The translations under genes were made by a program, and so were the position numbers. A stretch of 64,000 nt of DNA from the NCBI GenBank assembly GCA_021234155.1, contig JAJEKV010000025.1:12749654-12813653 (forward strand), in the 5' to 3' direction. The notes under the pieces were generated by a model. The model saw only the letters and a program-made list of their open reading frames with translations, made no database searches and was not told the DNA's origin. The DNA comes from Isoetes taiwanensis (taxonomy: Eukaryota > Streptophyta > Lycopodiopsida > Isoetales > Isoetaceae). Numbering within the stretch: position 1 is the stretch's first letter; each line of letters starts with the position of its first letter. Shown here one piece after another: positions 40,660 through 61,721 of this stretch.

Positions 40660-40719
40660 AGATATAAAATCACCAAATATGAGCAAAAAAATGCTTAGGA
40701 TCAGAGCAGGCAAGAACCG

Positions 40720-41244: not shown

Positions 41245-42780
41245 TGTGACGTTCCAAGACAATATATCTGAGTCCGGGGCATTATCTTTATCTTTGCCAC
41301 GGTAATCCGCCACCCCGACCGTGGCGATAATGCGCCGGCGTGTAGCAGTGGGGGGTAGCCCTATTAATGTGCACATTTATTAAGGTGCACACCTTTCCAT
41401 GTGGGCACATTTTGCCACCTAGCCATTAAAGGCAAGTGGGCCCATTCCCAATTATCCCACATGCCTAAAGGGATAATTGGAAACTCTAGCCTAACCCCCT
41501 TGTCTATTTAGGTAGGAGAAACCCTAATTTAGCCATTTTCGTTCCTAGGGTTTTAGAGCTCTGTTTTGGTCGCCTTCAAGAGCCAAAATCGCCCTCCCGA
41601 GACTGCCTGCGGCGGGTTGCACCGTTAGTTTCCCTTGATTCGAGCAGTTCAGCAGGATGGTCGAACTCAGGTCAGGAGGAGCAACTCAAGGATCAGGTAT
41701 TTAGTCAATGAAATAGTCTAAACCATCTTCTAGTCATCGAATCAGTAGGTTTAGCCTATTAAATTGCCCATAGCAGCCCTCTAGATCTCTAGATACCAAA
41801 CTCTAACTAAAGAACCTAACTCTATGATATAGATTAGATCTAGTTCTTTAGTTCTTCCTGATGTATATGGATGATCTATCTCTATGAACTCCATGTATTG
41901 GGAAGGGGGTAGAGACCTAAAGCTTGGTAGTAGATGCTCCTAGATTAGCCTCTCTAGCACACTTGTAGATTCGCCTTTGTGTACAAGAACCACACACGGT
42001 TGTGGGTGAAGGGGCCGACCGGCTAAGAAAGAGGTTCGTGTTCTCGACTCTGAGCGATCCCTCCGAGTGTGTAAGGCCTACAGGGATCATTGTGACTAGG
42101 TCTAATGGCTTACCACCGAGTGCGGGTAAGGCATGGGCTCGACACCCGTGAAGTGGTGTACACTTTCCGATGGGTTCAACAACAAGGGCGGTGGCCCTCT
42201 AGTCACCTTGAGTCAACATGTAGACCTCTCACGGAGGGAGAGATCCCTACCTGCCCCCATCGAACCGGGGAGATGCAACCCGAGAATAGCCCCTTTGGCT
42301 ATGCATCCCGCTGGCTACAGTCAGTCCCAACACTTTTCAGCCTACTACGCAAAGTGTGCACGGGGAGGGGCGGATGGAGTGGACAACCCAATGCCATGTT
42401 CTTATGCCAGCCAAATCCATTGCCATGAATTACCTGCGCAATGAACTCGAGACCCAAGCTATCGGGTCATCCCTTCGAAGTCCGAAAGCCATGAGTAGGA
42501 CCCCTATGTATGATCGCTGATCATTGTCTATGCAGATGTTGATGCACCACCCTTCGAGGTGGATATGTGATTATGTTGTATCTTGACATGTATGTTTACG
42601 CTTCCGCAGACTAGGTAGGCCCCGGAGGGAGACGGGTAAATGACCCCTTCACTCTTCCCACCGGAGACCCAAGACGGTCCGCGATGATATGTGGAGGGCC
42701 CAGACGATATGGAGCTGGTATGGGGATGAACTCCTGTTTGTATACAGTGCAGGCATCGTATACGGGTAGGGGACGTCACA
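41245..42780 (+). repeat. 5' LTR of element A
   Basis: Starts TGTGACG and ends CGTCACA, an inverted terminal repeat shared with B. Internal blocks such as GTATTGGGAAGGGGG-TAGAGACCTA, GGGGAGATGCAACCC and ATGTGTATTC-type ends also occur in B's LTRs in the same order, but diverged. The boundary is set by the PBS-like sequence one base downstream. Confidence 0.8.
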
Positions 42781-42781
42781 G

Positions 42782-42816
42782 TAGTATCAGAGCAATGTTC
42801 TTGGTGACCAAGAGCA
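42782..42816 (+). promoter_or_regulatory. primer-binding site of A with adjacent palindrome
   Basis: TAGTATCAGAGC (one mismatch from the initiator-Met PBS TGGTATCAGAGC), then TCTTGGT-G-ACCAAGA, a 7-bp palindrome matching the similarly placed one in B. Confidence 0.7.
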
Positions 42817-42984
42817 AAGCACTGACCATGCTCCCAGTAGTACTAACTTGATAGGATTCTCAAACCTCGAAAAATGGGAAATTTTTTTCTCATTTTTGTA
42901 GTATATGCTAAGCTAGTAACAGTTAAAATGAATGGAAACATAAAAAGATTAAAATTAGTGAGCCAACCTTCAAAAAGTAGGATG

Positions 42985-43259
42985 GTCTCACACGTCCGCC
43001 GTGACGATAATGAGAATCTCATTTTCGGCTGGGCTAACGCAGAGACATTCACCAAAACACCCTAAAAAGTCATGAACTTCAGAGAAATAACTTGATAATT
43101 CTAATTTTAAGCTAGGATTTAGTTAGAATTGGCATATTATATTCCTAGAAACATGCTTAGAAAATATAAAATTTAGCATCAGAATCTGCCATGTCTCACA
43201 CGTCGCGCCAGGACAGAAAATGAACTTTTCATTATCGGTCTGGGCGCAACGTGTGAGAC
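42985..43259 (+). repeat. two long hairpins upstream of the H3-like ORF
   Basis: 43193-43259: GTCTCACACGTCGCGCC pairs with GGGCGCAACGTGTGAGAC, and inside it AATGAA-CTT-TTCATT forms a second stem. 42985-43046 is a diverged copy (GTCTCACACGTCCGCC... AATGAG-AAT-CTCATT ...). The inner stem changes AATGAA/TTCATT to AATGAG/CTCATT, a compensatory pair, suggesting the fold matters. Confidence 0.8.
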
Positions 43260-43446
43260 CATGCTTGAATTTAGGTATTCTAGGTGTTCCAGATGACCCA
43301 AAAAGATAGTTTGAAATTTGACCTAAAATCGGCCGCCTATAAATAGACTTAGGCCCCCCCATTTCCGCGTCCCTTCCTTAGAAAATTGCTCTCCCTCTGC
43401 TAAGGCGATTTTCCGTCGCCGACATCGCATTGACGAGCCGTCGAAT

Positions 43447-44118
43447 ATGGCGAGGACCAAACAGACTGCTAGGAAGCCCCGCCCGGCCCGAATCCTCCAA
43501 ATTTCCATGATCCCCCCCCTCATACGAGGGATATCGCAAGAACGCCTTTTCAGGCAAGGCAAATCTTCATCGAGTGAGGAGGCAAACTCGGACCAAAGCG
43601 ACGAGACAGAGGTCCTAGACGACGAGCGCCCAGACATCATGCACCAAATCCTCGAAGAAGTCGCCGAGGAGAAAAGGAGGAGGAAGGAGGAACGGGAACA
43701 GCACAGACAGCCGACCATCGAGGAGCAACTCGAAGCTTGGGCTCATCTGAAGGAGGCTGAGGAGAGAGAGGAGCAACAGCAGCCGAGGCTTGACCCTGCT
43801 GAAGAAGAAGACCTCGTGGCGTTCATCAGGAAGAACAAAGCCAAAGAGCGCCACCGAGAGAGGAAGAGAAAGAGACAGGAGGGGAAGCCCAACACAGCCG
43901 AGGAGCCGAAGAAGAAGAAGGCGAAGGGGAAGGGCAAGATGGTGGGCAAGAGAAAAGTCGTACAGGTTAAGCGGGTAAAGGGTTTAGTCATCAACGAGTC
44001 GACAGCCGACCAGACCCCGCCCTCCACCGACGACTCCGACGAAGATTACGTCCCCAACACTGAGGGGGCAAGCTCTTCAAAACCCCCGGTTGTGGGAGCA
44101 GGTAGTACCGAGCAGTAG
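43447..44118 (+). CDS. H3-tail-like N-terminus and charged linker of the element A histone-like protein
   Basis: The frame begins MARTKQTARK, identical to histone H3 through Lys9 (H3 numbering after Met removal), then Pro instead of Ser10. After about 20 further residues it becomes a long charged linker: acidic (SDQSDETEVLDDERPD), a predicted coiled coil rich in Glu/Arg/Gln (residues about 75-140), then basic clusters EPKKKKAKGKGKMVGKRKV, which look like nuclear localisation signals, and a final acidic-Ser stretch. A TAG stops it at 44116-44118; the next two blocks of the same region lie in the other frames. The ATG has A at -3 and G at +4. The histone fold at 44432-44696 argues that the H3 tail is not a coincidence. 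Confidence 0.8.
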   Translation: MARTKQTARKPRPARILQISMIPPLIRGISQERLFRQGKSSSSEEANSDQSDETEVLDDERPDIMHQILEEVAEEKRRRKEEREQHRQPTIEEQLEAWAHLKEAEEREEQQQPRLDPAEEEDLVAFIRKNKAKERHRERKRKRQEGKPNTAEEPKKKKAKGKGKMVGKRKVVQVKRVKGLVINESTADQTPPSTDDSDEDYVPNTEGASSSKPPVVGAGSTEQ

Positions 44119-44164
44119 CACATGAGCGGTATGGCGGCAGGCACCGGCCCCACCCTACCCGACG

Positions 44165-44430
44165 TGGGACAGGGTCAAAGCCCAGCGGCCACAACGGGAG
44201 GCATATGTGATAGACCCCGTAAAGGTCTATCAAAAGAAGATGAAGGAACACAACGCCTTCATGGCGAAGTGGGAAGCATATAACGCATACTATCAGGAGA
44301 ACAGGGTACGGACTATCGAGGGCGGACATCCGACAAAGAGCCAGACCCTAAAGCCGCCACCACCAAAGCCCAAGCCTCCCGTGAGCACCGGGAAGAAGCG
44401 GACCGGGAGGAAGGAGATGGAGAGGAGAGC
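44165..44430 (+). CDS. linker segment between H3-like tail and fold (element A)
   Basis: Second frame of the H3-like region: DPVKVYQKKMKEHNAFMA, KWEAYNAYYQENR, then PPPPKPKPPV, KKRTGRKEMER. Element B has a decayed counterpart (RWTRYNDWYRPQKRP at about 54800-54850), so this block is a conserved part of the element protein. The PKP/KKR portion occupies the place of the PHRYRPGT neck before the H3 alpha-N helix. It needs frameshifts to join both neighbours; no enzyme motif is visible. Confidence 0.55.
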
Positions 44431-44431
44431 C

Positions 44432-44696
44432 CTCAAGAAATCCGCACTTCCAAATGGGTTACGGATTTTTAATCCCCCGTGCCCCGTTCCAGCGCCTAGT
44501 CCGAGAGGTCATCCAGGAGTACAACACGGACATGAGGGTGACCGACGAAATGTTGCTGTGCATACAAGAGGCAGCAGAGCATAAACTGGTGCAGCACTTT
44601 GAAGATTCGACGGCCTGCACAGTTCACGCGAAGAGAGTCACACTCATGAGGCAAGACATGCATCTTGCTAGGCACATTAAGGGAGAATGCCCTTAA
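44432..44696 (+). CDS. histone H3-like fold domain (element A)
   Basis: Third frame: a degraded alpha-N segment, then PRAPFQRLVREVIQEYN (alpha 1), TDMRVTDEMLLCIQEAAEH (loop 1 and alpha 2), LVQHFEDSTACTVHAKRV (rest of alpha 2, loop 2), TLMRQDMHLARHIKGE (alpha 3) and a stop two residues later, just where canonical H3 ends. By eye about half of 74 aligned residues match canonical H3 without gaps. Loop 1 has canonical length, unlike the longer loop of plant CENH3, although TLMRxD resembles CENH3. H3 pairs with H4 in nucleosomes; whether this version does is unknown. Small indels in alpha-N break the frame. Confidence 0.88.
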
Positions 44697-44841
44697 ACCT
44701 TTTGTAAATAATAGAAAATTTTTGTTAATATAAAGAATTTTTGGGTAAATAATATGTTTAATCTTGCTTAATTAGGTTAAGATATTGAATTCTGGCGTTT
44801 GTTTTGGTAAAATTGGACTTTTTGAGCAAAATTGAGACGAT

Positions 44842-45109
44842 GTCTCACACGTCGCGCCAGGACAGAAAATGAACTTTTCATTTTTCGGGCTGGGCGCAAC
44901 GTGTGAGACCATGCCCCAAAAATGCCCAAAACAGCTCCAAATTGACCAAATAAGGGGTCAATTCTGCCTAACTCGACGAGTCCAGTGGAATTAGACCCTT
45001 AGATCACCCAAATTGATCAAGTTCAGCCCATTTAGAGCCCATGTCTCACACGTTGCGCCAGGACAGAAAATGAACCTTTCATTATCGGTCTGGGCGCAAT
45101 GTGTGAGAC
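44842..45109 (+). repeat. two long hairpins downstream of the H3-like ORF
   Basis: 44842-44909 and 45043-45109 repeat the 67-nt hairpin of 43193-43259 (outer arms GTCTCACACGTYGCGCC and GGGCGCAAYGTGTGAGAC, inner AATGAA/TTCATT). The unit is thus present on both sides of the H3-like region. Confidence 0.85.
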
Positions 45110-45421
45110 CTCTCAGCATTTTCTTCACCATGCCATATCCAAATGATCTCCAGTTGTTGCAATAGGTTCATTAGTTGATCTTAGCATGCTCAAACCCTAA
45201 AAGTAGTCTTCAAATTCTCATTAGCACCTCCTAATAGGTCAGAATTGTTCAACCCCAGTAAAATTCTAGGTCATCCAAAAATTAGGGTTTTCCCCTTTCC
45301 TATAAATAGTCCCCCATTTCTCATTTAGCACCCTACAAGTTTGCTCTCGACTGCTTAGGCGATCTTCCAGCTCCCTGAGGCGCTTCTGCATCTGTTTGCT
45401 AGTCTCTTCTTCGTTAGATCA

Positions 45422-46932
45422 ATGGCCACTGCTGACTTCAGGCGATGGTACAGCGCCAGTGCCCATGCTGCCGAAGCTGATGTCAACGACATCTTCTGAG
45501 TCTTTGGGAAAGAAATAGATGTCCAAGCCACTTTGAATGCAACCCCAGCATATAGACAAGTTTTAGCACAGTTCCAAGCTAGGATAGGACCCTCCCTCGT
45601 TCAGCTCCCCCCTTGCATAGGCTATTTCGTTCCCCGCCCATCCCTTCAAGCAGCCTTGGGTGATGTCCCGAACATCGCCAAATACTTGACCAACAAGGCA
45701 CAGAGGCTGCCAGATTACATGGTCCTGACAGTTGACAGGACCAAGTATTTCTCCTACACCGCCGCCCTAGCTATTTTCCTATCCCACCGTGCCGAAAACC
45801 CAATGGGGGCAACCTCTATCCCTCCCATGGAGGTGGACCCCATAGCAGCACAAGCAGAAGAGCAGATGCTTTTGCAGTACCAGCAGGAGCAAGAAGGAAG
45901 AGAAGAAGAAGAGGAGTCGGACGACGAAGAGTACACGGAGCTCGACTCAGAGGAAGAACGGCGGCAAGCAGAGGAGGAGCTGGCCAACATCGAGCGGAGC
46001 CGGCAGACCCTCAGAGTCGCTCCCCCACTTGGGCTAGGCATCACAAGCCTAGCCCCCATCATCATCAACGGAGAGGAGTATCTACTCCTCAGTGACATCC
46101 AGAATCTTCCTGAATGCAGGGAGAGGGAGCTCCGGCTTGATGAGTTGCTGCACCAACAGCAACCAGATTTGGATGACTTCATCGTCCGGGGAGCCTCAGA
46201 CTTCCCGCTTCAAGTGCGAGAAGCCAGGGGAGTCAACTTCCGACATCCAGGCCTACAGCAACATAAGACAGGTTATGGAGGCCGGAGAATTGCCATCTGA
46301 AGAAGAGTTCCTCGCCATTGTGAACGGATGGGGATCGAGGCAAGACCACCAAAGATCTTGATGCCGAGCCCCTCGACACCACCTCCAAAGAAGAGGGAGC
46401 AGAATCGACATCGAGAGTCGACGCCGACAATTGCGCATCACCGGTGAACCGACCGAGGTAGAAGTTGACGAAGCACGGACGCATAGAGCCGGAAAGCCAA
46501 GCAAGTGGGGAATCATCTGCGACACACAACGGCAAAAGTCATTTGAGGTACTACACCCCTCGCCGCCGGATGGGAGAATAGCGGTGATAATAATAACAAA
46601 TTTAGCCCCCAGGGCTTAAGAGGGAGTGTTCATGCTCATTGCACTCTCTGGCTTTGGCAGGCATGCTCGAATAGCTGCAAATGTCGACTATGATGTCTTA
46701 GTCAAGAGAGCGATGGCGCTCGACCTCTTCGACTTCGCCGTGCCCTACCGACGCGGGGAAGATTGAGCGAATCAGCGGCCTACACCTCCCCATCGCAGTA
46801 GAGGAGTTGGTGACGGCACTACAGGGTGGGACGTCAACCAATGTCCTTAGGAACTTGGGACGCTCCATAGGAATGGCCCAAGTTAAGAAGTTCCTTGAGG
46901 ATAACCCATCTTACCGGCGATTTCAAGATTAG
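45422..46932 (+). CDS. element A second ORF, unknown function (broken)
   Basis: From MATADFRRWYSASAHAAEAD the frame runs, with one TGA at 45497-45499, through LVQLPPCIGYFVPRPSLQAA, YLTNKAQRLPDYMVLTVDRT and a strongly acidic Glu-rich stretch (residues about 140-195 of the frame). Then frame changes lead through QVMEAGELPSEEEFLAIVNG, SKWGIICDTQRQKSFEVL to LSGFGRHARIAANVDYDVLV and SIGMAQVKKFLEDNPSYRRF and a stop at 46930-46932. No family recognised. It lies between the H3-like region and gag, where autonomous gypsy elements normally have nothing. The YTAALAIFLSHRAENP block could be globular. Confidence 0.45.
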
Positions 46933-46992
46933 TAGACTCTTGATCCCGGAGATTTTGTACTAAAATATTATATAATATAAATATAATTTCTT

Positions 46993-48412
46993 TTGCACTT
47001 TAAATGTTTTGTCGATGTATTTCGTTCCCCAACTATACCAACAAACATAAATAATGCAAGAGAACATGAATTACTTGTGTATGCAGCTAGAGGCTTAGGC
47101 TCAGGGGAACGACAACGCCGAGACCATATGGAAGAACAGAGTCCGCCCAGGCCACCCCCGGCAAGGAACCTGTATGAGGAATTTGGACCCATGACCCCAG
47201 AAGAGGAAATATCACAGATGAGGACGGACCTTGAGCTGATAAAGGCTTTGCTAGCCGCACAAGCAGGAGTGGGTTCGGAGGGCAACGCTCAGTTGCCACA
47301 AGCATCAGCTCGGAAAACAGGAAGGGACAAGAAGAGGAGCAAGAGAAGGAGATCCTCCAGCTCGGAATCCTCCGACTCAAGCTCAGATTCGGACTTCGAC
47401 TCCGAGAAAGAGGAAGAGCAGGCCCAGGACCGAACAGATGGAAGGCAAAGGAACACTGCAGATGGAAGGCAGAGGGATACCACAGATGGACGACAAAGGG
47501 ACACAAGAGCCTCTGACTACCAGAAAAAGGTAGACTCTGCATTGGGAAACGTATGGAAGGCCAGGAAGCTCGAGCAATTCTCAAAGCGAGAACGGGTCGC
47601 ATGGAGGCAGAGGCTTGGCTCGATGAAATGAGTGAATACGGCAACGCCTATGGTATGAAGGACAAGGATAAAGGCAGGGTGGCAACAGCCAACCTGAAAG
47701 GAGCAGCACGCATTTGGTGGAAGGGGTATGCAAAGGCCCATGGCTTGAGCAGGGATGCTTGCAGGTTCAGAAAGTTTGCTAAAGCCTTCAAGCGCCATTA
47801 CGTCCCAAGAGAGCACAAGTCCAAAGATGATGCAAAGAAGGTTCTACAAAGGTTGCGGCAAAGGCAACAAATCAGTCCAGAAGTATACAGAGGAATTCAT
47901 GAGGCTGAGGCTAGTTGGGTGAAAAGCATGCAGTAGAGAGCTACATTGAGGGGCTGAATGATGAGATCCGCAAGCTTGTAAGGGCAGACAGTATCAGAAG
48001 CAGAGTCCAAGGCAATAAGTTTGCAAGGAACAGGGCCTCAGAATAGCGGGAAGAGGCAGCAGTATTATCAGGACAAAGGCAAGGCAATCGAGGAGTTATA
48101 GCCCTAGGGCAGCCAGCCCGTGCCCAAATAAGAGCCCCATATGGTGGCAACCCGTGGGAAGCGGCGGGGAGAAGAAGCGGGTGTCCTTCAAGGACAAGCG
48201 GGAGGGTCAAACTACTCCAAAGCAAAGACGATCCTTTTGCAGGCTATGCCCAAGGAAAGAGAGACAGAGTGCATAGAAAAAGCAGCCTTTGCTTCGGGTG
48301 CTTCCAAAATGGCCATAGGGACGAAAACTGCCCCTACGCCATGAGTGCGGCACTAGCGGAGTTGGGAGATTGGGACACTCTCCGGGACGACGATGGCGAG
48401 GCAGCCCGCTGA
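46993..48412 (+). CDS. element A gag with zinc knuckle (frameshifted)
   Basis: The first frame (to 47631) has MEEQSPPRPPPARNLYEEFG, then a Ser-Asp-rich stretch and a 24-bp tandem repeat encoding DGRQRDT units (47443-47506). The next frame (47553-47936) has the retrotransposon capsid core: AEAWLDEMSEYGNAYGM, ANLKGAARIWWKGYAKAHG, FKRHYVP. Further on, CFGCFQNGHRDENC (48290-48331) is a perfect CX2CX4HX4C nucleic-acid-binding knuckle. Two frameshifts separate the blocks. Confidence 0.8.
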
Positions 48413-48849: not shown

Positions 48850-49720
48850 ATGTCTTTTAAGCGGCTGTTCAAGTGCATCAAGAGCGAGCAGGTAGCATAC
48901 ATCTTCAAGCTTGAGATTGAAGAGCCGGAGTTGGAAGAAAGCAAAGAAGACAAGATGCTCAGCAAGTTGCCGAAGCAAATAGCTAAGTTGATCACGAAAT
49001 TCCACGATCTCTTTCCAGATGAGATCGAGCACCTCCCTCCTTACAGGGGAGTCGAATGTGAGAGATAGCACTCAACCGAACGGCCAATCGGGTAAGACCC
49101 CATACAGAATGACGACGCAGGAGTTGACGGAGCTAAAGAAGCAATTGCAGGAGTTGCTCGACCTAGGCTTCATTAGACCTAGTGTCTCACCATTTGGGGC
49201 GCCCATTCTTTTTGTCAAGAAGAAGGATGGCAGCTTGAGGATGTGCATAGACTATAGGCAGTTGAATAAGCACACCATCAAGAACAAGTATGCGCTTCCC
49301 GTCGGATGACTTGATGGACCAGCTCCAAGGGCAAAGGTCTTCTCAAAATTGACTTAAGGTCAGGCTATCATCAAATCGGATTAAGGAAGAAGATATCCAT
49401 AAAACCCTTCGAGCAGCGGTATGGGCATTATGAGATCACGGTAATGCCTTTTCGCTTATCGAACGCCCCCACGGCGCTCATGAGGCTCATGAAACGACAT
49501 CTTCGAGGGAGTTCTTAGACACCTTTGTGATTGTATTCTTTGATCTATATTTTGGTGTATAGCACGCATACAACACTTAAGGAGAGTGCTAGAGAAGTTG
49601 AAGAGGCACCAGTTATGCCAAGTTGTCGGGCGCCACCGCAAAACGAAGAAGGTGGAATACCCGGTCATGTGATCTCGCCAGAAGGAATTTCGACGGACCC
49701 CCGCCAAGATTGAAGCAGCT
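48850..49720 (+). pseudogene. element A reverse transcriptase
   Basis: Blocks in order: [79 protein letters not shown], then after frameshifts KIDLRSGYHQIGLRKK, QRYGHYEITVMPFRLSNAPT, FVIVFFD and HVISPEGISTD. The second Asp of the YxDD catalytic box and its context are lost, so the enzyme is inactive in this copy. Confidence 0.85.
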
Positions 49721-50026
49721 GATCCAAAGGGCCGGGCGAAGAATGTGCATGAGGTCAGGTTTCCTTGGCCTAGCGGGGTACTACGAGGAAGTTCGTGAAG
49801 AACTTTGCTAAGATAGCAGCCCCACTAATGCACTTGACGAGGGCGAGAAGGTGAAAGATTGGGCGCAGCATTGGCACAAGAAAGCCCAAGCGGGGTTTGA
49901 ATTGTTGAAGGAAGCTCGGACGGCCGGCCCCAGCCTTTAACCCCGCCGGACCCGTGAGAAAGATAAGTTTGTAGCCACGATGCGAGTAAGATAGCTACAG
50001 CGCAAAGCTCATGCAAGAAGAGCGCG

Positions 50027-51427
50027 GTGGTAGCGTATGATTCCGTGAAGATGAACGACGCCGAACGCCGCTTCCGACCCATGATCGAATTGCTTGCGGT
50101 TGTCAGGGCATTAAGAATTTGGAGACACTACCTCTTGGTAAGGAAGTTCCAATTGGATACCGACCATCAGAGCCTCCAGTATGTATTCACGCAACCACAC
50201 CTTAATCTGAGGCAGCGAAGGTGGATGGAGTTCCTCGAGGAATATGACTTTGATATAGTCTACAAGCCGGGGAAGCTCAATGTGGCAGCGGATGCGCTTT
50301 CAAGGCATCCCCTGACAACTAGAGTGCATTGCAATGCAATTTCGACGCTCTCCAGTGACTTTGGTAAGAAGATTGAAGAGTCCTTGTCAACGGATGTGGA
50401 TTTCAGGGAAATATGGGCAAGCCTCTCTAGGGAGGCTAGAATAGATAAGGAACGGGAAGCCTTCAAACATTATAAGAAGGAAGGAAACCTGTTATACCAT
50501 AAGAATAAGTTGTGCGTGCCCGAATCAGCAGGTGTAAGGAAATTGATCCTCCATGACACGCACAACAGCCCAATAGCTGGCCATGCGGGATTCATGAAAA
50601 CATATTTCAAAGTGCGCAGCAGCTATTATTGGCCAGGAATGAAGAAGCAGGTAGCTCGCTACATCAAGGAATGTCAGCTATGTCTGCAAACGAAGGCAGA
50701 GCAGCTTCGAATTCCAGGGGCATTGGAGCCATTAGCGGTGCCAAACGCCAAGTGGGAGGTCATCAGCATGGATTTCATCACAGGGCTCCCAAGGACCGTA
50801 AGAGGGAAGGACGCTTTGATGGTAGTGGTCGACAAGTTGTCGAAGATGGCACATTTTGTGCCTTGCAGGACCACAGACACCGCTATGGATACAGCGAAGC
50901 TCTTCACCAAAGAGATCTTCAGGCTTCACGGCATGCCAAGGGAGATTATCTCCGACAGGGATCCGAAATTCATGAGCGCCTTTTGGCAAGACCTCTTCGC
51001 GACAATTCAGACGAAGTTATCCATGAGCACGGCATATCATCCTCAGACGGATGGCCAAACGGAGCGGACCAACAGGATTCTAGAGGACATGCTACGGAAC
51101 TATGTCTGGAACAAGCAAGGTATGTGGGAAGAATTTATTCACTTGGTGGAGTTTGCCTACAATAGCACCAAGCAAGAATCATCCCAAATGTCAGCCGTTT
51201 ATGATCAATTACGGCTATCAATGTTTAACTCCGCACACTTTGGCACAACCCAAAGGTCAAAAGTAGAGGTTTCGCAGCGGATGTTGTCCCATGCGGCAGC
51301 TTCGTGGAAGAAGTTCGAGGATATCTGCTTGCGAAGAAGGAGTCGACGAGAAGAGCATTGCCGACAAGCATCAAACGAAATCGAGAGTTCCAAGTTGGAG
51401 ATGATGTATGGCTCAAGATCAAGGTAA
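50027..51427 (+). CDS. element A RNase H and integrase
   Basis: 466 open residues. RNase H: FRPMIELLAVVRALRIWRHY, FQLDTDHQSLQYVFTQP, LNVAADALSRHP. Integrase zinc-binding domain: HDTHNSPIAGHAG with YYWPGMKKQV and CQLCLQTK, giving HHCC. Core: WEVISMDFITGLP, IISDRDPKFMSAFW and HPQTDGQTERTNRILEDMLR, so the D,D,E catalytic triad is intact. The frame ends in the region before the GPY/F module, which is read in other frames (KLAPRW at about 51463). Integrase inserts the element cDNA. Upstream, RNase H is truncated by a frameshift. Confidence 0.9.
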   Translation: MVAYDSVKMNDAERRFRPMIELLAVVRALRIWRHYLLVRKFQLDTDHQSLQYVFTQPHLNLRQRRWMEFLEEYDFDIVYKPGKLNVAADALSRHPLTTRVHCNAISTLSSDFGKKIEESLSTDVDFREIWASLSREARIDKEREAFKHYKKEGNLLYHKNKLCVPESAGVRKLILHDTHNSPIAGHAGFMKTYFKVRSSYYWPGMKKQVARYIKECQLCLQTKAEQLRIPGALEPLAVPNAKWEVISMDFITGLPRTVRGKDALMVVVDKLSKMAHFVPCRTTDTAMDTAKLFTKEIFRLHGMPREIISDRDPKFMSAFWQDLFATIQTKLSMSTAYHPQTDGQTERTNRILEDMLRNYVWNKQGMWEEFIHLVEFAYNSTKQESSQMSAVYDQLRLSMFNSAHFGTTQRSKVEVSQRMLSHAAASWKKFEDICLRRRSRREEHCRQASNEIESSKLEMMYGSRSR

Positions 51428-51639: not shown

Positions 51640-51866
51640 GAGCAAAATGGAAGTAGTTCGAGTTGATTCTTGATAAAGCCTTCAAGAAAACAAGGAGATC
51701 AGAGTTTCTCCAATATTTGGTCAAGTGGAAACACTTGCCAGTGGAAGACGCGACATGGGTACTTAAGAAAGATCTAGTAAAGCAGTACCCACAGTTTATG
51801 GAGCAATGGGACGGCAAGGTCATCTCCGAAGAAATCGGCTCAGGCATGTCGATTTGTGTAGATTAA
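51640..51866 (+). CDS. element A chromodomain at the integrase C-terminus
   Basis: ILDKAFKKTRRSEFLQYLVK, WKHLPVEDATW and a helix LVKQYPQF match the chromodomain of plant chromoviruses (YLVKWKGxPxxEATWE). In related elements this domain is thought to target integration to chromatin carrying methylated H3. The first aromatic cage residue is not evident, as in group II chromodomains. A frameshift separates it from the integrase core. Element B keeps the same domain at 60616-60840. Confidence 0.82.
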
Positions 51867-51903: not shown

Positions 51904-53545
51904 TGTGACGGTCCAGGGGAATATACGCCATAAATACGTATATTCCGGGATCCGTCACTATACAAGTCTATCTTCATAGCCTTGTATACCATAGATTGTG
52001 GCACTAGGGGGCATGGCCAAGTTATTCTCATAACTTAGCCAACCATAGGTTAGACCATTATCCACGTGGCCTTAACCTATTGGGGGCACCCGCCACACAG
52101 GACTCACCCGATTGGTGCCACGTGGCATCCTAGGTGGACCTAACTTATATAGGCTGGAACCCTAACCCTAGGCCTCTTTCCAGCCCTAGCACCCAGAGAC
52201 TCACCTACTCGTTCGAAACTCCGTTTCGAACATCGTTTGCTGTGGCATAGACTGGCGCAGCAGCCCCAGCAGGGTAGACTCGTTCTTGGAGCAGGAGCAG
52301 CATCACGTGGGTCGAAGACCATGGAGGCACACGGATCTGGAGGGAGAGCATCAGGAGCAGGTATGTAGGGTAGTAGTTGTGATAGCCCATCTGGAATTAG
52401 CATTCCAGATGTGCTAGTATCTTGTATCTAGAGTAGAGCCATCCTAGAACCCGTATTCAACATCTTGAACCCTAATCAATGAACCCTAACCATTAGTTAG
52501 ATTGTATGATTAGGTTAAGATGTTCTTCTTATGATCATTCTTAGGATATGATGATTATGTGATGTTGGTTGATCATGTTTGCTCCTCTTGTATTGGGAAG
52601 GGGGGTAGAGACCTAGGGCCATATGTAGTATGCTCCTAGAGTAGATCCCTTAGTTCCTATTAGTTGCGGCCTGTGCATAGGAGCCCACCAGGCTATCGAG
52701 GCTATGATGTGACTCAGCACCACATAACGGGGCTAGAGGGAATGTGGAGGGAGGATCCCCGCCGAAAGGGGGGGGCTTCGGGATCCCATAGTGGGCTAGG
52801 CCTATGGTCGGTCACTTCGCAGGGGCGAGCATGGGTCCGACACCTCCTGGGGCAATGGTGTCGCCGCCTCTCCTCGAGAGCCGCAAGTGTTGGCTTGGCT
52901 CTCGCTTTGGGGGGTTAAGTCGGCACGACCGTGTGTCGCCACGCATTCTCTAGCCGCCACGGAACCTCTAGACCCCAGGAAGGGGAGATGCAACCCTTCC
53001 TGCCTCATCGGACCGGGGGAGATGCAACCCGGAGTAGTCCCGATGGGTGATGCCATGGGATTGCGTGATCCGAAGGCTAGAGTCATGCCAGAGCCTGATT
53101 TAGCCCATCCGCAAAGTATGCAGGAGGGCGGATGGAGTGGTCAACCCTAGCCATTGTCTATAGCCAGCCCGCCATTGTTATGACTCGGTCTGCTCTATCT
53201 TGAGGCCTAGCCAGCTCGGTCACCCTCCTACGCAGTGGAGCCATGGGTAGGAGCTCTTATGTTTTATGGCTTAGGATTATCTTCTTTGCAGTTGTGGATA
53301 TGTGATGGACTACCCTTCGAGGTAGTATGTTGTATTGTTATTGCTAGTTCTGACGTTGTTTATGCTTCCGCTGTGATAGGAGCCCATAGGGGAAGGGCGC
53401 GCAAGACACCTTTTCAGTGTCCCCCGCCCGCACTAGGATTCTCTCAGAGTGGGGTTAGACGGAGGGCCCATGCGGTTGATGGACCGGATGGGGGATTTCT
53501 ACCCGAAAGTGCGGCGGGCCGTGATATTTAGCGAGGAGCGTCACA
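51904..53545 (+). repeat. 5' LTR of element B
   Basis: Starts TGTGACGG, ends GTCACA; nearly the same as 61722-63359, with scattered substitutions and small indels, many at G/C runs. TATA-like ACTTATATAGG at about 52143 precedes the likely transcription start. Confidence 0.93.
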
Positions 53546-53546
53546 A

Positions 53547-53558
53547 TGGTATCAGAGC
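53547..53558 (+). promoter_or_regulatory. primer-binding site of element B
   Basis: TGGTATCAGAGC, initiator Met tRNA type, one base after the LTR; GTTCTTGGTTGACCAGG follows, like the palindrome after the PBS of A. Confidence 0.9.
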
Positions 53559-54123
53559 GATGTTCTTGGTTGACCAGGAACTAGCACTGACCATGACCAT
53601 GAAAGTAGTCTAACAGGCCTATAGGGGTGTGAAATAAAAATTTCCACCATTGAACCGCGAAAATAGGGGAAAATTTTTTCTCCTAGGTAGTGGGTCCGGA
53701 ATTAGGTTGTGTGTTAGACGAAGAAATAAATGAGTCAAATTTACCTTCTAGTAAATTTTGAGTGAAAATTATGCATCTGCATCAAATTTCACCTAAAATG
53801 GGTCGAAGAATCATGCCAATCTGAGACCCGAGTGAAAAATGGCGCAAATCCATAATTAACACTTCAAACACTTAGGAAATTTGAAATTTTAAAGGTATAA
53901 TAGGAATTTTAGTATGTGTATTAGAAATTTAATATATATTAATAATAAGGGTACTATGGTGTAATTAATAAGGGGGCTAATAAGTAGGCCTATTAATGGT
54001 AGGGAAAATTCCCAGGGACCCTCCTTTTTAAATATCCCTGACACCTCATTTTCCCTCCAACCTTTTCCTCCACCATCTCTCTCTTGACCAGCCTATCCCC
54101 ACCCGTTTTCTAGACCGTTAAGT

Positions 54124-55258
54124 ATGGGCTTAACCAAACGTACTCCACAGAAGCCGTGATGCCCCACACTCGATGGATGGCTAACCTAGCAAAATGGACG
54201 CCATGTGAAGAAGATCCCGGAGCACCTCCACCCAAGAAGGGGAAGAGGAGCTCTACCAAAGAAGCAAAGCAGCAGTGACGCACCTATCAATGCATGCCGA
54301 GCAGCCCCCCTCGGCCGGGCGTAGAACGCAAAGAACCGACGAATCTCGCCACTTCGGGCCACGACAATCGGGCGGAAGAGCGCAGAGGAAGAGCAGTCCA
54401 AAGAATGTGTGGACGGCTGGCCTTCGCCAAGGAAGAAAGGCAAGGAGAAGGTTGGGGAGTGGCCGTAAGAGAGGGCCGCAAGGAGGAAGAGGGAGCGAGG
54501 AGGAGCCGCGGCGCAGTGAGCGGAGGACGAAGAGAAGAACGACGTCCCCGCCGCCGAACCGCCGCGGATAGAGGAGCCTCCCCGCGCGAGGAGGAGCACG
54601 CGGAAGGAGAGGAGCCTCCCCGCGCCAGGAGGAGCACGTGGAAGAAGAAGAGCAGGAGGAAGAAGATGAGCAGGGGAAGGGGCGAACCAAGACCACATTA
54701 CCCAAGCAGGGCCTAAGCCACCTAAGGTGGTAAAGAAGCGAATGGGCGAAGGGGCCTTCGCTTTGAAGGAGGACCGCCTCTACCGGGCCGGCCAAGGCAT
54801 ACCAAGAATACCTTCGCCGGTGGACGAGGTATAATGATTGGTACCGGCCGCAAAAACGCCCCAACAGACCGCGGGAGGGAGGCCGGGCCGCCAAAGAACC
54901 AGCCTGCCCGCCAGCCACAGCCCGAGAAGCCAAAGAAGGTCCACCATGGGCCTAATTCGCACACTCCTCGCAGTTCCCGAGATTAGACACTTTCAACAAA
55001 GCACTAATCTCCTGATTAGGAAGGCACCTTTGAGCCACTCATGCGGAGGTGATGCAAAATAGCCGTCACCCACTACAGAGTGACGCCGGCCACAACTCCT
55101 GGGTGTTGCAAGCAGTCACGAGGCCGAGGCTCACCCGCTTGTTTGAGGAAGGAACCTCTGGGCGATCCACGAAGAGGGTGACTTTGATGCCCAAGGATAT
55201 ATACTTGGCGTCGCATCCGCAAGGAATACCCTTGAGGATGCATTTTTGTCCAAAGTAA
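54124..55258 (+). pseudogene. H3-like protein gene of element B (decayed)
   Basis: The start reads MGLTKRTPQKP before a TGA, aligning codon by codon with A's MARTKQTARKP (Thr3, Lys4, Thr6 and Lys9 kept). A GC-rich, Arg/Glu-rich linker follows (54290-54720), then RWTRYNDWYRPQKRP (counterpart of A's 44165-44430). EIRHFQQSTNLLIRKAP (54979-55029) is an H3 alpha-N helix, better preserved than in A. After a frame change come SDAGHNSWVLQAV, LTRLFEE, STKRVTLMPKDIYLASHPQG (55085-55246), the H3 alpha 2-alpha 3 region; RVTLMPKD is nearer canonical H3 than A's version. Alpha 1 is mostly lost. Confidence 0.75.
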
Positions 55259-58200
55259 TGTAATTATTAAGTCTCCCATAAATATAAAATTTTTGTTGTA
55301 AAGTGACTTCAATTTTTGTATAAAAATGTGTTTGGGTTGCTCAAATTTTAGTTTAGTTGTAGCCATCATGACTTGTAAGCATCCAAATAGAATAATTTAG
55401 TAAGAGTACTATAGGCAAATTAGTCAAATTTAAAATTAAAATAAATCGAAATCGGAAGGGTGTCTTGAAAATAGCCTTTCCGCCCTTGACGGAAGGCCCA
55501 AATTAGCATAGCCATCCGATTTCACCATATCCGAGCCAAATTTTGCCCAATTAGCCCGAGAAAAGTTCCAAATTAGGTTAGAAATTCCCAAATAAGTATG
55601 TTAGGATCTTTAAATTCTCTAAAACTCTTGATAGAAGCCCCAAAGATCCGAAATCGGAAGGCTATCCTCTGCAAATTGGCCTCTGCCCATTTGCCCCTTG
55701 ACCACCAGGTTTCATGGAAGGCCCATTTTCGCACAGAACCACCCGGTTTCATGTGCATCTGTCTGAAAATTTGGCAAAATTGCAATGAAGAGTTCTGAGT
55801 GCATATCCTAGCCTTTTCCATGCATTCTAGTATCTTGCGGCACTCTATTCTAGCTTTTCAATCTATTTGAACCTCATCTTAAAAGAATTCCCACAGTAGC
55901 AGGAATCGAACCTCCCACCCACAAGGTTGAACCCCTCCAAACCCCCCCGTGCCAACCACTGAGGGCGGGCATCGTTTGTGTTTAAATTAGGATTCTTAAT
56001 TAAATTTAAGCTTTAATAATGTTAAATAATATTAATGGCCAAGCCTTAGATTTAGAACCAAGAACCTTAAGCTAGATAGAGACAGCACCTGCACTCATCA
56101 TAGCTCTCTTGTCGTCTTATCTTGCTAAGTGTCTTCTTTCTACATGTAGGTAGTATAATTAAACCTTTTTCATAGAAACCCAGCTAGTTGCCAAGGCCTT
56201 AGAAATTGTTGTCACCGTTGGTAGGGTACACCAACACCGCTATAGGTGCACTATCATCAAGTGTCTTCAGCCATGCCTTGTATCATAGATAATTATCTAG
56301 GAATTCATTCTATTTAAGTAATTTAGTCTTAGCACACCAAGTACACTCAGTGAATAAATCTCCTTCTACCACCCCCACGATAGTAAATAAGTACCTTTCT
56401 CGATTACTAGTAGAGTGCCATATGCCAAGTGGGTCATTTGAGGTAGAGTGGATAAAGGTATAAAAATTAGGGTTTGTAGAGTAAGTAAACGTAAATAATT
56501 GTTCTTGCGGTAGTATTAATTGCCTTGTGGTAGGGCAGTAAAATAGGTCAGGAGAACCTTCGTCACAGATCCTCGAGCCTCGACATTGGAGAGACTCGAC
56601 AACATCAACGAATTGAAAGAAGAGGGCAAACTATGGAGGAAACTTCAACAAATCAAAGGCCAAGATGGTGTATAGGGAAGCCCGAACATGAAAAATAAAG
56701 GAGAGCCTATAGGAAGAACGATTGCGACATCAAGATTAGACATAAGAATTTCCAAGAGGGCTATGCAACAGCCAATGGGCATCGTGGCACTTACAAAATT
56801 GATCACATTAAGGGAGGAACATCTCCTAGTCAAGTATACTCTCCAAGTGCCATATTGTCTCGAGGAAGGGCCGACATCGATGACTAACGCCACAGCTACA
56901 CCACCAACAAGTATACTTCATCGACTTATGATATCAAGAGCCCTAAAAGATGAGACTGGATATACCTCCGAGGAAGGGCAACTATCGCAGATATACAGGA
57001 CATAGTAGTATCAGATCTAGATTCCAAGCAGACATGCTTTGACTAAGGAGGTATTGCAAGCCAGCAAGGGTAGGCTCCTCGGAAATAGGAATATGGCGAG
57101 ACTGCAACAAATTTCTTCCTCATCAGCCCCGATACTTCAGAGCGCCTACATCAACCTCGGCAACACCATCGCAATCTCATGATGATCGACAATCTTCTAC
57201 CTTAGAGATTGGAGGTCAAACACCATCAAGAAGAGGCATCATGGGGGACAAAATACCAGCATTATTAATTGATCAGTCAAGATTAGTCCCTGCAGATGGA
57301 TGCACATAAACTCCTCTCAGCAAGAGAAGTTGCACAGTTAGAAGGGGTAAAGCACTCAACATTGTCATCAGCCTTATAACAACAACATGCAACCAGCAAG
57401 ACGAAGAATAGAATCGACAAGGTCAAGCACAACAATAGCAATTCAGGAGTTGGAAGAATCATCCTCGAATCTCGTAACCTCCAAGGCAGATGAGCGACAT
57501 GAAAGATTCTAGAATGTGAAGAACATTATCTTCAAGCTCTTGGGATGCGACACCGAGCGTTATGTTATCTACATCAGCAAGTCCACTAATAGGGATAATG
57601 TTAATGAAGGTAGTCAGCATCAACATTAAGGACGAGCAGAGTCAAAATATGTTCAATAAAAGAAAGCAGGGCACTTGAAGGACCATACAGCAACTCCAAG
57701 GATACCAGATTCTTTTCAACAAATTATGGATCATCGCCTTGCTACTCCAACGACTAATGTCTACACCAGCTTTGAGCAAGCTAGGGGACCTATCAGATAG
57801 TTGAGTTTCTTAGAATTATGGGTGATAACATCCATGATGGGATGGGGACGAAATTTCGAGTAGAATTTTTTTGTCTTTTCCTTTAGAAAGATGGACCCAA
57901 GAATGGAGCAAAGCTTCAAGTATTGGAAAGAAAATGTATGGAGTACAATAATTGTATACATTGCTGGCAGATATCCAACATATTGGAACCTCTTCGTGAA
58001 CTTGATCACCTCGCTAAGAAGGATTCAATAATAATAGGATAACCGTCGACCATGTATATGACGAGTACTTCCGCAGCATAAGGAATAATCCGACCAAATG
58101 AAGGGAAGCAATCTAATAAGTCCGGCCAACTTCTTAGATGGCATCAACTCAAAGGTGGGACTATTTCAAGAGGGCAATAAGTAAGAAAGGGGAGATCCTA

Positions 58201-58630
58201 GACTATAGATTAGATCTGAAACAAGAATAATTATCTAACCATATAGTTTTCTATGTGTGCCCAAAAGTAATGTCATGCCGACTAAATTTGTGGCCATAGG
58301 ATTTATGTAAGTAGTTCTTTAACTTGTAATTTTGCACCTCCTAGATGACGGACATCTTTAAGAGCAAGACTCTTAAGTCTAAATCTAGGCCGATGAATAA
58401 GGCAAGGTCGAGTAATTAGCAAAGACCAACGGAACAAGAGTCAAGTCGACATCAACCTCAAGCATAGCTAAGTAAAGCATCGCAACCAACTTATGTACAT
58501 TGGCAGCCATGACCTCAGAATAGACATGCAATATTAAAGCCGGCTAAGGCAATAATTTATTATCATAAGCAAGAGATACTTATCCCAAACCAAAGGGCAA
58601 GTACCTTATAATTTAAGTTAAGTAATTCCA
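55259..58630. other. element B interior, no recognisable gag
   Basis: Short frames only. ATCGGAAGG and its complement recur: GAAATCGGA (about 55447) pairs with TCCGATTTC (about 55525), and CGAAATCGGAAGG occurs again at about 55646; this parallels the hairpins beside the H3-like gene in A. The frame 56688-57005 is unrecognised. This is where gag and ORF2 should lie, so they are lost or unrecognisable. Confidence 0.4.
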
Positions 58631-59250
58631 ATGCGTTACAGCATGTCGTCAAAACAATTACTTAAGTACATCATGAGGAATGAGGTCGTACATAAGCTAC
58701 AAGTTGTCAACCCCGACTACAAGAGTAAGAAGGAACATGCTACTTCGAAACAGTTGCCTTGGCCAATTTCTAAGTTAATTAAGAAGTCCCATGATATATC
58801 CCCTGATGAAATTTGAGAGCTTGTGCTCTATAGAGGCGTAGAGTCTAAAATCACTCTTGCACGGATTAGCAAGGCTCTTTATAGAATGAGCACTTCCAAG
58901 CTAGCGAGCTCAAGGAACACAAGGAACAGTTGTAAGAGTTGACCGACTTGGGGATCCTTTCGCCAAGGTGGAATTCCAAAGATGTATATCAACCATGGGA
59001 AGCTCGGCAAGTAAACGACATAATGGATCAGCCCCAAGCGAGGATTCTTCTACAAAATCGACTTAAGCTCGGGCAATCAAAGGCAAATAAGGATGAAGGG
59101 GAAAATAATTATAAGACTCCTTGAACTTGGTATGGGCACTATCATTTCACGTTGATGCCCTTGAGTCTATGGAATGCTCCACCAATTTGTATGCATTCGA
59201 GGACGACATCTTCGAAGATTCCTTGGATGATTTCTTCATCAATATCTCTT
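58631..59250 (+). pseudogene. element B reverse transcriptase relic
   Basis: SKQLLKYIMRNEVVHKLQVV, PWPISKLIKKSHDISPDEI, LYRGVESKITLA, LTDLGILSPRWNSK, then fragments such as KIDLS and YHFTLMPLSLWNAPP parallel A's RT blocks with many stops. No active-site box remains. Confidence 0.7.
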
Positions 59251-59529
59251 CAACAACAGCGTGATCTACAGCAAATTAATGGAAGAGCATGTAGCCCAAT
59301 TGAGGGAAGCCATGGAGATGCTAAGACGCCGCCACTCATTGGCAAGCCTTTGAAGCATCAATTTGCAATCTCCACTTCGGCAAGTGAATTCGGCAAGAAG
59401 ATAGAAGAAGCCATCTACTCCAACATGGACTTCAAGCACATAATGGGCTAGTCGTTGCAAGAGTGCAAGGACGGATTAAGAAATAGAAACCTTCAAATAG
59501 TTTAAAAAGGAAGGCAATCTCTAATAGCA

Positions 59530-60230
59530 AAGAACAATTATGCGTACCCAAAGTATAAGAAGTAAGAACAATCTTCCATGACACGCATAATAGCCCTATT
59601 TCCAGCCATGCAAAATTTATAAAGGCCTACTTCAAGATTAGAAGTAGCTACGTCTGGCCGGGTATGAAGAAGTAGATAATCAGATATATCCAAGAATGTC
59701 AGTGGAGCCAGCGGACAAGGGCGGAACAACTTCGGATTCCAGGAGTTTTGGAACCTTGGGCAGTGCCAGACACCAAGTGGGAAGTCATCAGCATGGGCTT
59801 TATAGTTGGCCTTCAAGGACAACAAGAAGCTTCAAAGCCTTGATAGTTGTGGTATATAGCTTATCAAAAGGGCACATACTTGCCATGCCACACCATAGAC
59901 ACCGCCTTGGATCTAGCCGTGTGGTTTACATAAGAGTTCTTTTTAGGCGCATGGAATGCACAGTCGATCATCACCAAAACAAATCCGAAGTTCTTTAGCG
60001 GCGTTTAGCAAGACTTCTTCAACACGAGCTGCACCAACTTGTTGATGAGTTTTGCTTATCAATTCCAAATAATCGGCAAAGGGACCGCACCAACACAATT
60101 TTGGAGAGCACGTTGAGAAGCTATGATTGGAACAAGTAATCCAAATGGGCCGAGTACATCCACCTGGTCAATTACGTACAATAATATAAAGCAAGAGTCA
60201 TCGAAGATGTCTTCCCCATGATCGATTCTG
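59530..60230 (+). pseudogene. element B integrase relic
   Basis: HDTHNSPISSHAKFIKAYFK, YVWPGMKK-stop-IIRYIQECQ, RTRAEQLRIPGVLEPWAVPD, KWEVISMGFIVGL and HTIDTALDLAV correspond to A's integrase. The first catalytic Asp reads Gly (SMGFI), and the zinc finger has lost residues. Confidence 0.8.
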
Positions 60231-60615
60231 ATTATCAATGTGTGACCATAGTTATGTGGCATAATTTAGTGCCCAAGGTGGAAGTTTCTCAACAACGACA
60301 ACATATATCACGATAACTTTTGGTAGAAGTGTGAGAGTATCTTCAACAAAGATGGGCATATTTGAAGAGTCTAGCGGATAGACATAAAACTCCTCGAGAG
60401 TTGTTTTGTTGTGGCGCATAAAGTTGGCTAAAGTAAAGGTTAAGCAAGGGAAGCTTAAGATCGGCAATTGTAGGAAGCTTCGCCCTAGGTGGGCCGGTCC
60501 GTTCAAGATCTTGGAGAAGAGTGGGCTCTCAAGCACATAAGTTGGATCTCTTGACCCACCTTAAGGTCTTCCATGTGAGTTTATTAAAAGGCACGATCCT
60601 AACCCCGAGGAGGGT

Positions 60616-60957
60616 TTGGATACTCCAACTTTGTTGGAAATGACGGAGGATGAAGTTAAAATTGTGCCCGAATTGCTTCTTGATAAGTCATTCAAGAGGA
60701 CTAGGTGGTCCCAATTCCTCCAATATTTGGTCAAGTGGAAGCACTTGCCCGTGGAAGACGTGACATGGGTATTGAAGCAAGATTTGGAGAAGCAATACCC
60801 AGAGTTTATGAAGGAGTTTGATGGGCGAGTCGTCCCCGACTTGGTCGACCCGACTTGCCGGTGGTTAGCTAGTATGTTGTTAGTTAGCCTTAGACCGGGC
60901 GCATGCATTCTAGTTAGTAGGGTGCATGTGCGGAACCTTGGATCGTGTGGGCGATGA
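60616..60957 (+). CDS. element B chromodomain segment
   Basis: 113 open residues: PTLLEMTEDEVKIVPELLLD, FLQYLVKWKHLPVEDVTWVL, LEKQYPEFMKEFDGRVVPDL. The sequence is close to A's and is the best preserved coding piece of B. It is isolated by stops from the upstream integrase. Confidence 0.75.
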   Translation: MDTPTLLEMTEDEVKIVPELLLDKSFKRTRWSQFLQYLVKWKHLPVEDVTWVLKQDLEKQYPEFMKEFDGRVVPDLVDPTCRWLASMLLVSLRPGACILVSRVHVRNLGSCGR

Positions 60958-61270
60958 TGGGATACGCCTTTAGGGCATTCTCTAGGCCACACGCACCAAG
61001 AGGTGCGCATGACCATTAGGGTCATGTGAGTGAGGAATGAGGCATGGTGGGCGATGATGGGACATCGATCGGATGCTCTCTATGCCACGATGCGGGGGCC
61101 TTTTACCGGCCGTAGGAGGGTCATGGTGAAGGTTAAAGTGATCATCTTGGCGATGATGGGATCGTGAGATGTTCCCTAGCTTGAAACCCTCGGGGCATGA
61201 TGCCCGGGGTGTACTCGATCTGGGCGTCGTGTGCAGTAGCACTCGATCATGGGCGATGATGGGAGCATCT
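60945..61270 (+). repeat. GGGCGATGATGGGA repeats in B's 3' region
   Basis: TGGGCGATGATGGGA-type words occur at about 60949, 61049, 61149 and 61252, spaced about 100 bp. A related CGGCGATGATGAGACCAC lies in A's 3' region at about 63398, so this is part of the family's 3' untranslated region. Confidence 0.75.
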
Positions 61271-61709
61271 TAAATGATCCTTAAGCTCAAATCCGGAAAG
61301 GGCCATGATCTTGTGCAAGGTAGTAGGACAACCTTGAGCGATGGTTCGGCTCAAGGAGGTAAGGGGGTGGTCCCCTAAAACCACAAATTATTAACTAAAC
61401 TAACGTAATGTGCTCCTTTTTGCGTGCAAGTAGAAGGGGGACTTCAACGAGGAGCATTACACGAAGATAGGGGAGCCATAATTTAGATTATGAACCCTAA
61501 TAACACTTATAATAGTATTTTGTATTATCGTAAGAAATAACGGTGTTAAGGCTATATAATTTTGTATAAGTACAAATATAACCTAAATTTTGACTTTTTA
61601 CTAATAAAACTTGATTGCTAAAGTAAATTAAAGGTTATGACATGTTGTTGTTTTTTTTTGCATAAGGTAGGTTCGTCACCTTAGCGCAATCTTTGAGAAC
61701 GACATTGTC

Positions 61710-61721
61710 CTAAGGGGAGAA
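61710..61721 (+). promoter_or_regulatory. polypurine tract of element B
   Basis: CTAAGGGGAGAA directly precedes the TG of the 3' LTR. Confidence 0.85.

Follow-up and report, generated by a model that had tools for sequence, protein, structure and literature searches.

A chromovirus lineage (Ty3/gypsy) in the genome of Isoetes taiwanensis carries a gene derived from histone H3 as the first long open reading frame (ORF) after the primer-binding site (PBS). This gene has been under purifying selection and was amplified with the elements, and we regard the element anatomy together with the selection on the H3-like gene as close to certain. In both types of family described below, the H3 core is separated from the first few tail residues by a long module. 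Our main reading, to which we give a probability of roughly 0.45, is that the H3 variant made by the element enters nucleosomes with host H4 and alters chromatin for the element.

The H3-like ORF and the elements that carry it

The window analysed here is a stretch of 64,000 nucleotides (contig JAJEKV010000025.1), and it contains a Ty3/gypsy element, designated element A, in which an H3-like coding region (43447-44696, plus strand) sits between the PBS and gag. The first piece of this ORF (43447..44118, plus strand; start MARTKQTARKPRPAR) encodes the exact H3 tail MARTKQTARK and a charged linker, and its frame closes with a TAG at 44116-44118. A middle piece in a second frame (44126..44581, plus strand; YVIDPVKVYQKKMKEHNAFMAKWEAYNAYYQEN) is a segment also present in uninterrupted copies, and the H3 histone fold lies in a third frame (44385..44696, plus strand) and stops at the H3 C-terminus. 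The fold ORF (44454-44693) matched PF00125 with 74.8 bits (E 9.1e-21; cut-off 26.4 bits) and was aligned to residues 61-134 of an H3.3 chain in the PDB (E 5e-21), H3 being the best PDB match. The alphaN helix was found just upstream of the fold in another reading frame (EIRTSKWVTDF). The H3 part of this copy extends from about residue 47 to the C-terminus and is interrupted by a stop and by frame changes. When six-frame pieces of the whole window were scanned at E values up to 10, the sole further match was the decayed counterpart in a second element, B (17 bits, E 6e-4), and the H3 match in the window is therefore beyond chance. The window fold was modelled with AlphaFold2 together with six homologues and no H4. 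The model was helical (pLDDT 73, pTM 0.42), and among PDB structures it matched nucleosomal H3 chains best, though at an rmsd close to 13 A; it is of moderate confidence and adds little to the sequence evidence.

The window protein and its relatives have the H3 core fold from alphaN to the C-terminus, as judged by Pfam and PDB matches. The tail ARTKQTARKS is not joined directly to the core in a protein of about 136 aa, an insert of 200-300 aa lying between them. Judged by its predicted sequence, the A-type protein is an H3-derived fusion and not plain H3. The sequence-only reading of this DNA had described a gypsy element encoding an H3 tail, a charged linker of more than 200 residues and an H3 fold, in a frame that is broken in this copy. 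That description agrees with the PF00125 match (E 9e-21), the exact MARTKQTARK, the length of the insert in relatives and the position of the TAG with the remainder in other frames. Its account of a fold that stops at the H3 C-terminus was correct, with the amendment that alphaN is also present upstream.

Element A opens with a 5' LTR (41245..42780, plus strand) whose ends read TGTGACG...CGTCACA and which distantly resembles the LTR of B; the matching 3' LTR of A, preceded by a purine tract, begins just past the window (L054:267) and is itself interrupted. The PBS (42782..42800, plus strand; AGTATCAGAGC...) carries a motif that we take to be of the initiator-Met type, and 17 of 20 A-type copies fetched at about 10 kb have a similar motif upstream. 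A TATA-like box (43338..43347, plus strand) is placed 109 nt before the H3 start codon. A palindromic repeat upstream of the H3-like ORF (43193..43259) has further copies at 44842-44909 and 45043-45109; the three palindromes, about 67 bp long and 90-96% identical, flank the H3-like ORF and precede ORF2, and are possible regulatory hairpins.

ORF2, a second accessory ORF (45422..46297, plus strand; MATADFRRWY...), is located between the H3-like ORF and gag, with a stop at 45497-45499 after which it is open to 46297. It has a TATA-like box of its own about 120 nt upstream and gave no Pfam match above cut-off. A counterpart was present in 18 of 20 A-type copies. The similarity of the window ORF2 to that of the sister families described below is weak (E 1e-4 to 0.009), and among sister-family copies ORF2 is 42-58% identical over parts (L051:2987-3862; L053:2828-4200, two frames). 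Downstream are gag, in pieces (46987..47936, plus strand; PF03732, E 6e-6, on 47553-47933), and pol, also in pieces (RT start, RNase H and integrase; 49019..51424, plus strand), for which a similarity search gave plant gypsy matches. PF17917, PF17921 and PF00665 were matched on 50027-51424. The RT piece (49019-49306) had no Pfam match in the window and aligns with the pol of sister elements and copies. A chromodomain-like stretch at the integrase C-terminus (51702..51812, plus strand; EFLQYLVKWKHLPVEDATWVLKKDL) was recognised by eye, and the homologous stretch of the sister element L053 scored 34.2 bits against PF00385 (cut-off 25.1 bits).

Element B, a related chromovirus (51904..63359, plus strand), is nested in the 3' part of A with a target-site duplication, CAACC, and its LTRs (51904-53545 and 61722-63359) are 92.4% identical. 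A decayed H3-like ORF occupies the same place as in A (54126..55255, plus strand; MGLTKRTPQKP stop ... EIRHFQQSTNLLIRKAPL ... TKRVTLMPKDIYLAS); its last stretch is the one that scored 17 bits, the rest being recognised by eye. The pol sequences of A and B are 66% identical over 1473 aligned columns and the H3 ORF is in both elements, so that the ORF predates the split of the families or was acquired twice. The marks of a Ty3/gypsy chromovirus were found here, namely TG...CA LTRs, the order gag-RT-RNase H-integrase and an integrase C-terminal chromodomain, with the target-site duplication in B. Elsewhere in the window we noted pieces like another gypsy-type gag and pol (37640-40713, minus strand) and an ORF like the integrase zinc-binding region of another retroelement (25725-26285, minus strand), both by eye, and a 221-bp inverted repeat (10950-11170 and 12402-12622) with arms 100% identical.

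Copies, constraint and putative promoter in the A family

The I. taiwanensis assembly (1,658,258,908 bases, 1110 contigs) was searched with the DNA of the H3 region. Of 2101 candidates, 40 places were scored, the window and 39 others, the latter 79-90% identical to the window over all or part of the region, so that the genome has at least 39 further copies; 30 A-type copies were read (the window and 29 of the 39 others). Three of the 30 have an uninterrupted frame from MARTK to the end of the fold (420, 437 and 433 aa), and 27 are broken, the window's included. Two uninterrupted copies scored 85.5 and 89.1 bits against PF00125. The sequence-only reading had named other copies without the H3-like region as a refutation and a look for intact copies as a check; these places carry the region, and three copies have tail and fold in one frame. 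A protein search with the fold of one A-type copy gave 8972 candidates, the best 150 of which were all at least 90% identical; open frames of at least 400 aa without a stop were found at 37 of these, and at 2 more with a stop.

Downstream of the H3-like ORF in 20 A-type copies we found gag in 15, RT in 13 and RNase H-integrase in 12, two of the gag matches being displaced. The 40 best pol copies (of 7840 candidates) were compared with the listed A-type H3 places. For 15 of them, the window's own among these, such a place was on the same strand at 4.9-5.8 kb upstream; for 2 it was at 18-20 kb, and 23 had no H3 place among the matches listed. At one of these 23 the expected place was occupied by gag and protease-like sequence, by eye; nothing there matched window 42700-47000, which indicates that the spacing differs in that copy. 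H3 and pol distances were weakly correlated over 11 copies (Mantel r 0.36, with 202 of 2000 permutations as high).

Selection was measured as pooled Nei-Gojobori dN/dS over the 30 A-type copies with a codon bootstrap, the intervals of which are approximate because codons are taken as independent and pairs share ancestry. The tail gave 0.089 (0.029-0.194) and the fold 0.158 (0.101-0.240), an interval that overlaps that of the tail. Values of 0.231 (upper bound 0.297) and 0.230 (upper bound 0.339) were obtained for the linker and for residues 263-345, respectively. Wrong-frame controls on the same columns, in two frames, gave 1.1-1.9. For the core of eight fusion ORFs from the sister families the pooled dN/dS was 0.041, a rough value, with silent sites nearly saturated in many pairs. 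The purifying selection that the sequence-only reading had named as a check is thus present in both tail and fold. Most copies read are broken, and we infer that the constraint acted on replicating lineages. Purifying selection on the H3-like gene leaves the selected function unspecified.

At the level of single residues, all 27 A-type copies with sequence at K4 retain this lysine, and 26 of the 28 with sequence at K9 do so. In H3, R69, R72, R83, H113, R116 and D123 make DNA contacts or belong to H3-H3/H3-H4 interfaces; among the 30 A-type copies these residues were kept in 30, 29, 29, 27, 30 and 30, respectively. Replacements were found at R63 (P in 30 of 30) and at R129 (H in 29, Y in 1).

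Nineteen of 21 A-type copies examined keep the ATG, and 18 of these have the TATA-like box at 106-112 nt before the start; the exception, L009, has no near TATA-like box. An upstream box also occurs in the two copies that lack the ATG. The leader of the window ORF contains 14 upstream ATGs. The nearest upstream ATG is at least 131 nt from the start in all 19 copies, and in 18 of them none lies between the box and the start. This arrangement suggests that the H3-like gene of the A family may have an internal promoter. The box was rejected as a general feature of H3-like ORFs, there being no TATA box at a consistent place in ten fusion ORFs; 7 of these ten are free of ATG for at least 250 nt before the start, and the others have an ATG at 3, 66 and 95 nt.

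Sister families and the origin of the H3 part

A search of the genome with PF00125 gave 8704 candidates; among the best 150, the top 15 scored 164-165 bits and the rest 144-155 bits. Three of the top 15 places were read, and all were canonical 136-aa H3. Open frames of at least 400 aa occurred at 36 of the 150, and ten fusion proteins were picked from the PF00125 places for their long frames. All ten are 413-459 aa from the chosen start and share one layout: the N-terminus has K where H3 has K4 and is followed by a module of about 200 aa, then by a linker and an H3 core, with the H3 part running from about STGGK/KPHR to the C-terminus. The N-terminal module is a conserved domain of about 200 aa that differs from the N-terminal part of the A-type protein, and it gave no Pfam match at E up to 1 in the four proteins scanned. 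PF00125 scores of four fusion proteins were 126-149 bits. ORF2 was considered as a source of the fusion N-terminal domain and rejected (BLAST E 0.36 or worse; no similarity by HHalign). In all three sister contexts fetched, an LTR-like end was followed by the H3-fusion ORF, then by ORF2 and then by gag; two had a PBS-like motif, and in two (not L051) pol matched that of the window.

The tail of the fusion proteins has been rebuilt. K is present at the K4 position in 10 of 10 and exactly at the K9 position in 0 of 10; the H3-like protein of L053 (read as L046), for instance, starts MARTKGTKSY and is without K9. The residue before an STGGK-like stretch, which may stand for H3 10-14, is P in all ten, and RKPR is found near the ARK place in two (L038 and L039). 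The alignment of the pre-core residues with the H3 tail is ambiguous, either 10-27 or 26-34.

Identity to host H3 is 84-89% for the ten fusion cores and 53-54% for three A-type cores. Capture of a host H3 gene, as proposed in the sequence-only reading, is supported by the identity of the sister cores. In an 89-column tree, built without a CENH3 row, the ten fusion cores formed one clade (98/89) beside canonical H3, and the A-type sequences formed a separate clade (97/91) on a long branch; a joint clade of the two was not the best tree and was not rejected (p-AU 0.20).

Plant CENH3 is, like the A-type protein, H3-derived with a long variable N-terminal region, and the A-type motifs ALKEIRHFQ, LIP and VTLMR-D are presumably as in Arabidopsis CENH3. 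CENH3 has a lengthened loop 1. The A-type loop 1, in contrast, has the H3 length, alignment with host H3 showing no inserted residues, and the A-type tail is exactly that of H3 through K9. A genome search with a CENH3 fold yielded 6771 candidates, among the best 150 of which no CENH3 gene stood out; the top rows were canonical H3 places, and many others were inside long open frames.

A protein search with the 80-aa window fold returned six distant H3-like proteins, one from the fern Adiantum. The Adiantum nelumboides protein (P0005) is a diverged H3-like protein of 140 aa that has DMR and CIQEA in common with the window fold. No relatives of the A-type C-terminal region outside the Isoetes genome were found among 257 candidates, and viral contigs scanned with the fold and with the fusion N-terminal domain gave no matches.

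Proposed nucleosome entry and its alternatives

In our main reading the conserved core of the H3-like protein would pair with host H4, and the protein would be deposited in nucleosomes as a 'Trojan' H3 variant. Its N-terminal module and free K4-bearing tail could then shift local chromatin in favour of the element, through less silencing or through a state permissive for element expression and integration. In the window's family, transcription of the gene probably starts from a TATA promoter of its own within the element. Of the roles put forward earlier, namely docking of chromatin readers, entry into nucleosomes and compaction of cDNA, nucleosome entry appears to fit the sequences best. Copies in one frame, low dN/dS, kept contact residues, K4 and K9, the TATA box with its ATG-free leader and the same gene order in all three sister contexts would be consistent with it. 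Against it are the 27 broken copies of 30, the A-type fold with its 53-54% identity to host H3, the replacement of R63 and R129, the moderate AlphaFold2 model, the weak H3/pol distance correlation and the fact that purifying selection names no function. Among the parts scanned with Pfam there was no recognisable partner histone.

The nearest functional parallel is the H4 of a bracovirus (PMC5423620). CpBV-H4, from the wasp polydnavirus Cotesia plutellae bracovirus, joins host nucleosomes and alters expression; it has a 38-residue N-terminal extension, and the effect is lost without it (PMC5423620). As in Isoetes, a core histone with an extra N-terminal part is encoded by a mobile or viral genome, whereas here the histone is H3, the insert is 200-300 residues long, the carrier is a plant retrotransposon and the function is a predicted one (compared with passages of PMC5423620).

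A soluble decoy would need no nucleosome entry, its tail and core occupying histone chaperones, K4/K9 methyltransferases or readers and so blunting silencing. We consider this unlikely, though not implausible. The tail has the lowest dN/dS in the A family (0.089) though the fold has diverged, with the reservation that the fold interval overlaps; K4 and K9 are conserved there, and the long acidic and basic linker is unlike plain nucleosomal H3. In the fusion families, however, conservation is highest over the H3 core as a whole, DNA-contact arginines included, for which a decoy would have no use, and K is exactly at the K9 position in none of the ten proteins read.

The same tails raise the rather unlikely possibility that the fusion H3 is a silencing-resistant variant, an anti-silencing histone encoded by a retrotransposon. 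K4 is kept, K is missing at K9 and P precedes the STGGK-like stretch; ordinary K9 methylation of nucleosomes with these proteins could then be barred, and the element copies or the chromatin they target would escape the plant K9me2 pathway. The RKPR of L038 and L039, the ambiguous alignment of STGGK and the K9 kept in the A family argue against this; the A family would then be a diverged branch with a decoy-like tail.

It is quite improbable that the captured host gene is a passenger of no benefit to the element. The 27 broken copies would suit a passenger, as would a transposon of the fungus Pyrenophora tritici-repentis that carries a host H3-like gene, for which the passages at hand show no function (PMC3538342). 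The passenger reading is opposed by the low dN/dS of tail, linker and fold, where the wrong-frame controls exceed 1, and by the presence of the gene across diverged families and in element B. The Pyrenophora element is a hAT DNA transposon whose H3-like gene, H3L, is represented by 26 very similar genes, adjoins the transposon's own genes and was amplified with it; ESTs exist (PMC3538342). There, as here, a mobile element carries and amplifies an H3-like gene, whereas the Isoetes carriers are an LTR retrotransposon lineage with several diverged families, and their gene has a long N-terminal module and measurable purifying selection (set against the portions of PMC3538342 available to us). Transduplication of the hAT H3L kind was considered and rejected, LTRs and gypsy pol being found here in place of terminal inverted repeats and a hAT transposase.

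Self-docking, in which the tail of the element H3, placed in chromatin near the element's copies and methylated at K9, is bound by the element's own integrase chromodomain and steers insertions, is very improbable. The A family does combine a K9-bearing H3 tail with a chromodomain-like integrase end, and the MAGGY chromodomain binds H3K9me2/3 (PMC3350952). By eye, however, the chromodomains of A, B and L053 keep W45, but the Y48 place is taken by L and Y24 is not evident, and L053 combines its chromodomain with the H3-like protein that lacks K9. The docking by the element's own reader proposed in the sequence-only reading is weakened because two of the three cage aromatics are missing by eye. 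Plant group II chromodomains are without Y24 and usually without Y48 (PMC3350952). The elements described here resemble plant group II chromoviruses in their gypsy gag and pol and integrase C-terminal chromodomain, but in the passages of the source at hand no histone gene or extra pre-gag ORF is mentioned for the latter (PMC3350952).

Still less credible is a particle protein, an H3-like protein that would sit in the virus-like particle and compact cDNA or bridge gag and nucleic acid. An affinity for nucleic acid would be in keeping with its first-ORF position and with the basic segments KKKKAKGKGK and GKKRTGRK. The H3 fold, however, depends on H4, and no partner histone was seen in the parts scanned; a separate gag with PF03732 is also present. 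The cDNA compaction raised earlier has little in its favour. Finally, a host H3 gene that came to lie next to the element, or fused with it, through an assembly error or a single local insertion can be dismissed, since the 39 other dispersed copies, 79-90% identical, are incompatible with an assembly join and with two unrelated late insertions in the window copy, and 15 of the 40 best pol copies have H3 4.9-5.8 kb upstream.

In a paper on transposon-mediated amplification of a fungal housekeeping gene the words 'captured histone H3' occur once in the text available (PMC6710886), and 'retrotranspos' is absent from the accessible text of a 2022 review of viral histones (PMC9145170). No LTR retrotransposon with a histone gene was among the literature matches listed, a scope outside which most subscription papers and all preprints fall. 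The nearest kinds are the H3-like gene of the fungal hAT transposon and the bracovirus H4. Histones of mobile elements are thus already known, and the Isoetes gene, with its rebuilt tail and clear selection, is the first that we could find in a lineage of retrotransposons.

Transposons are silenced through modifications of histone H3. If the main reading is true, a selected H3 variant encoded by the element would be a direct genetic counter-move against H3-based silencing, or a use of it. The families of Isoetes would also constitute a natural experiment in the extent to which an H3 tail tolerates rebuilding, and they may be a possible source of new histone variants for their hosts.
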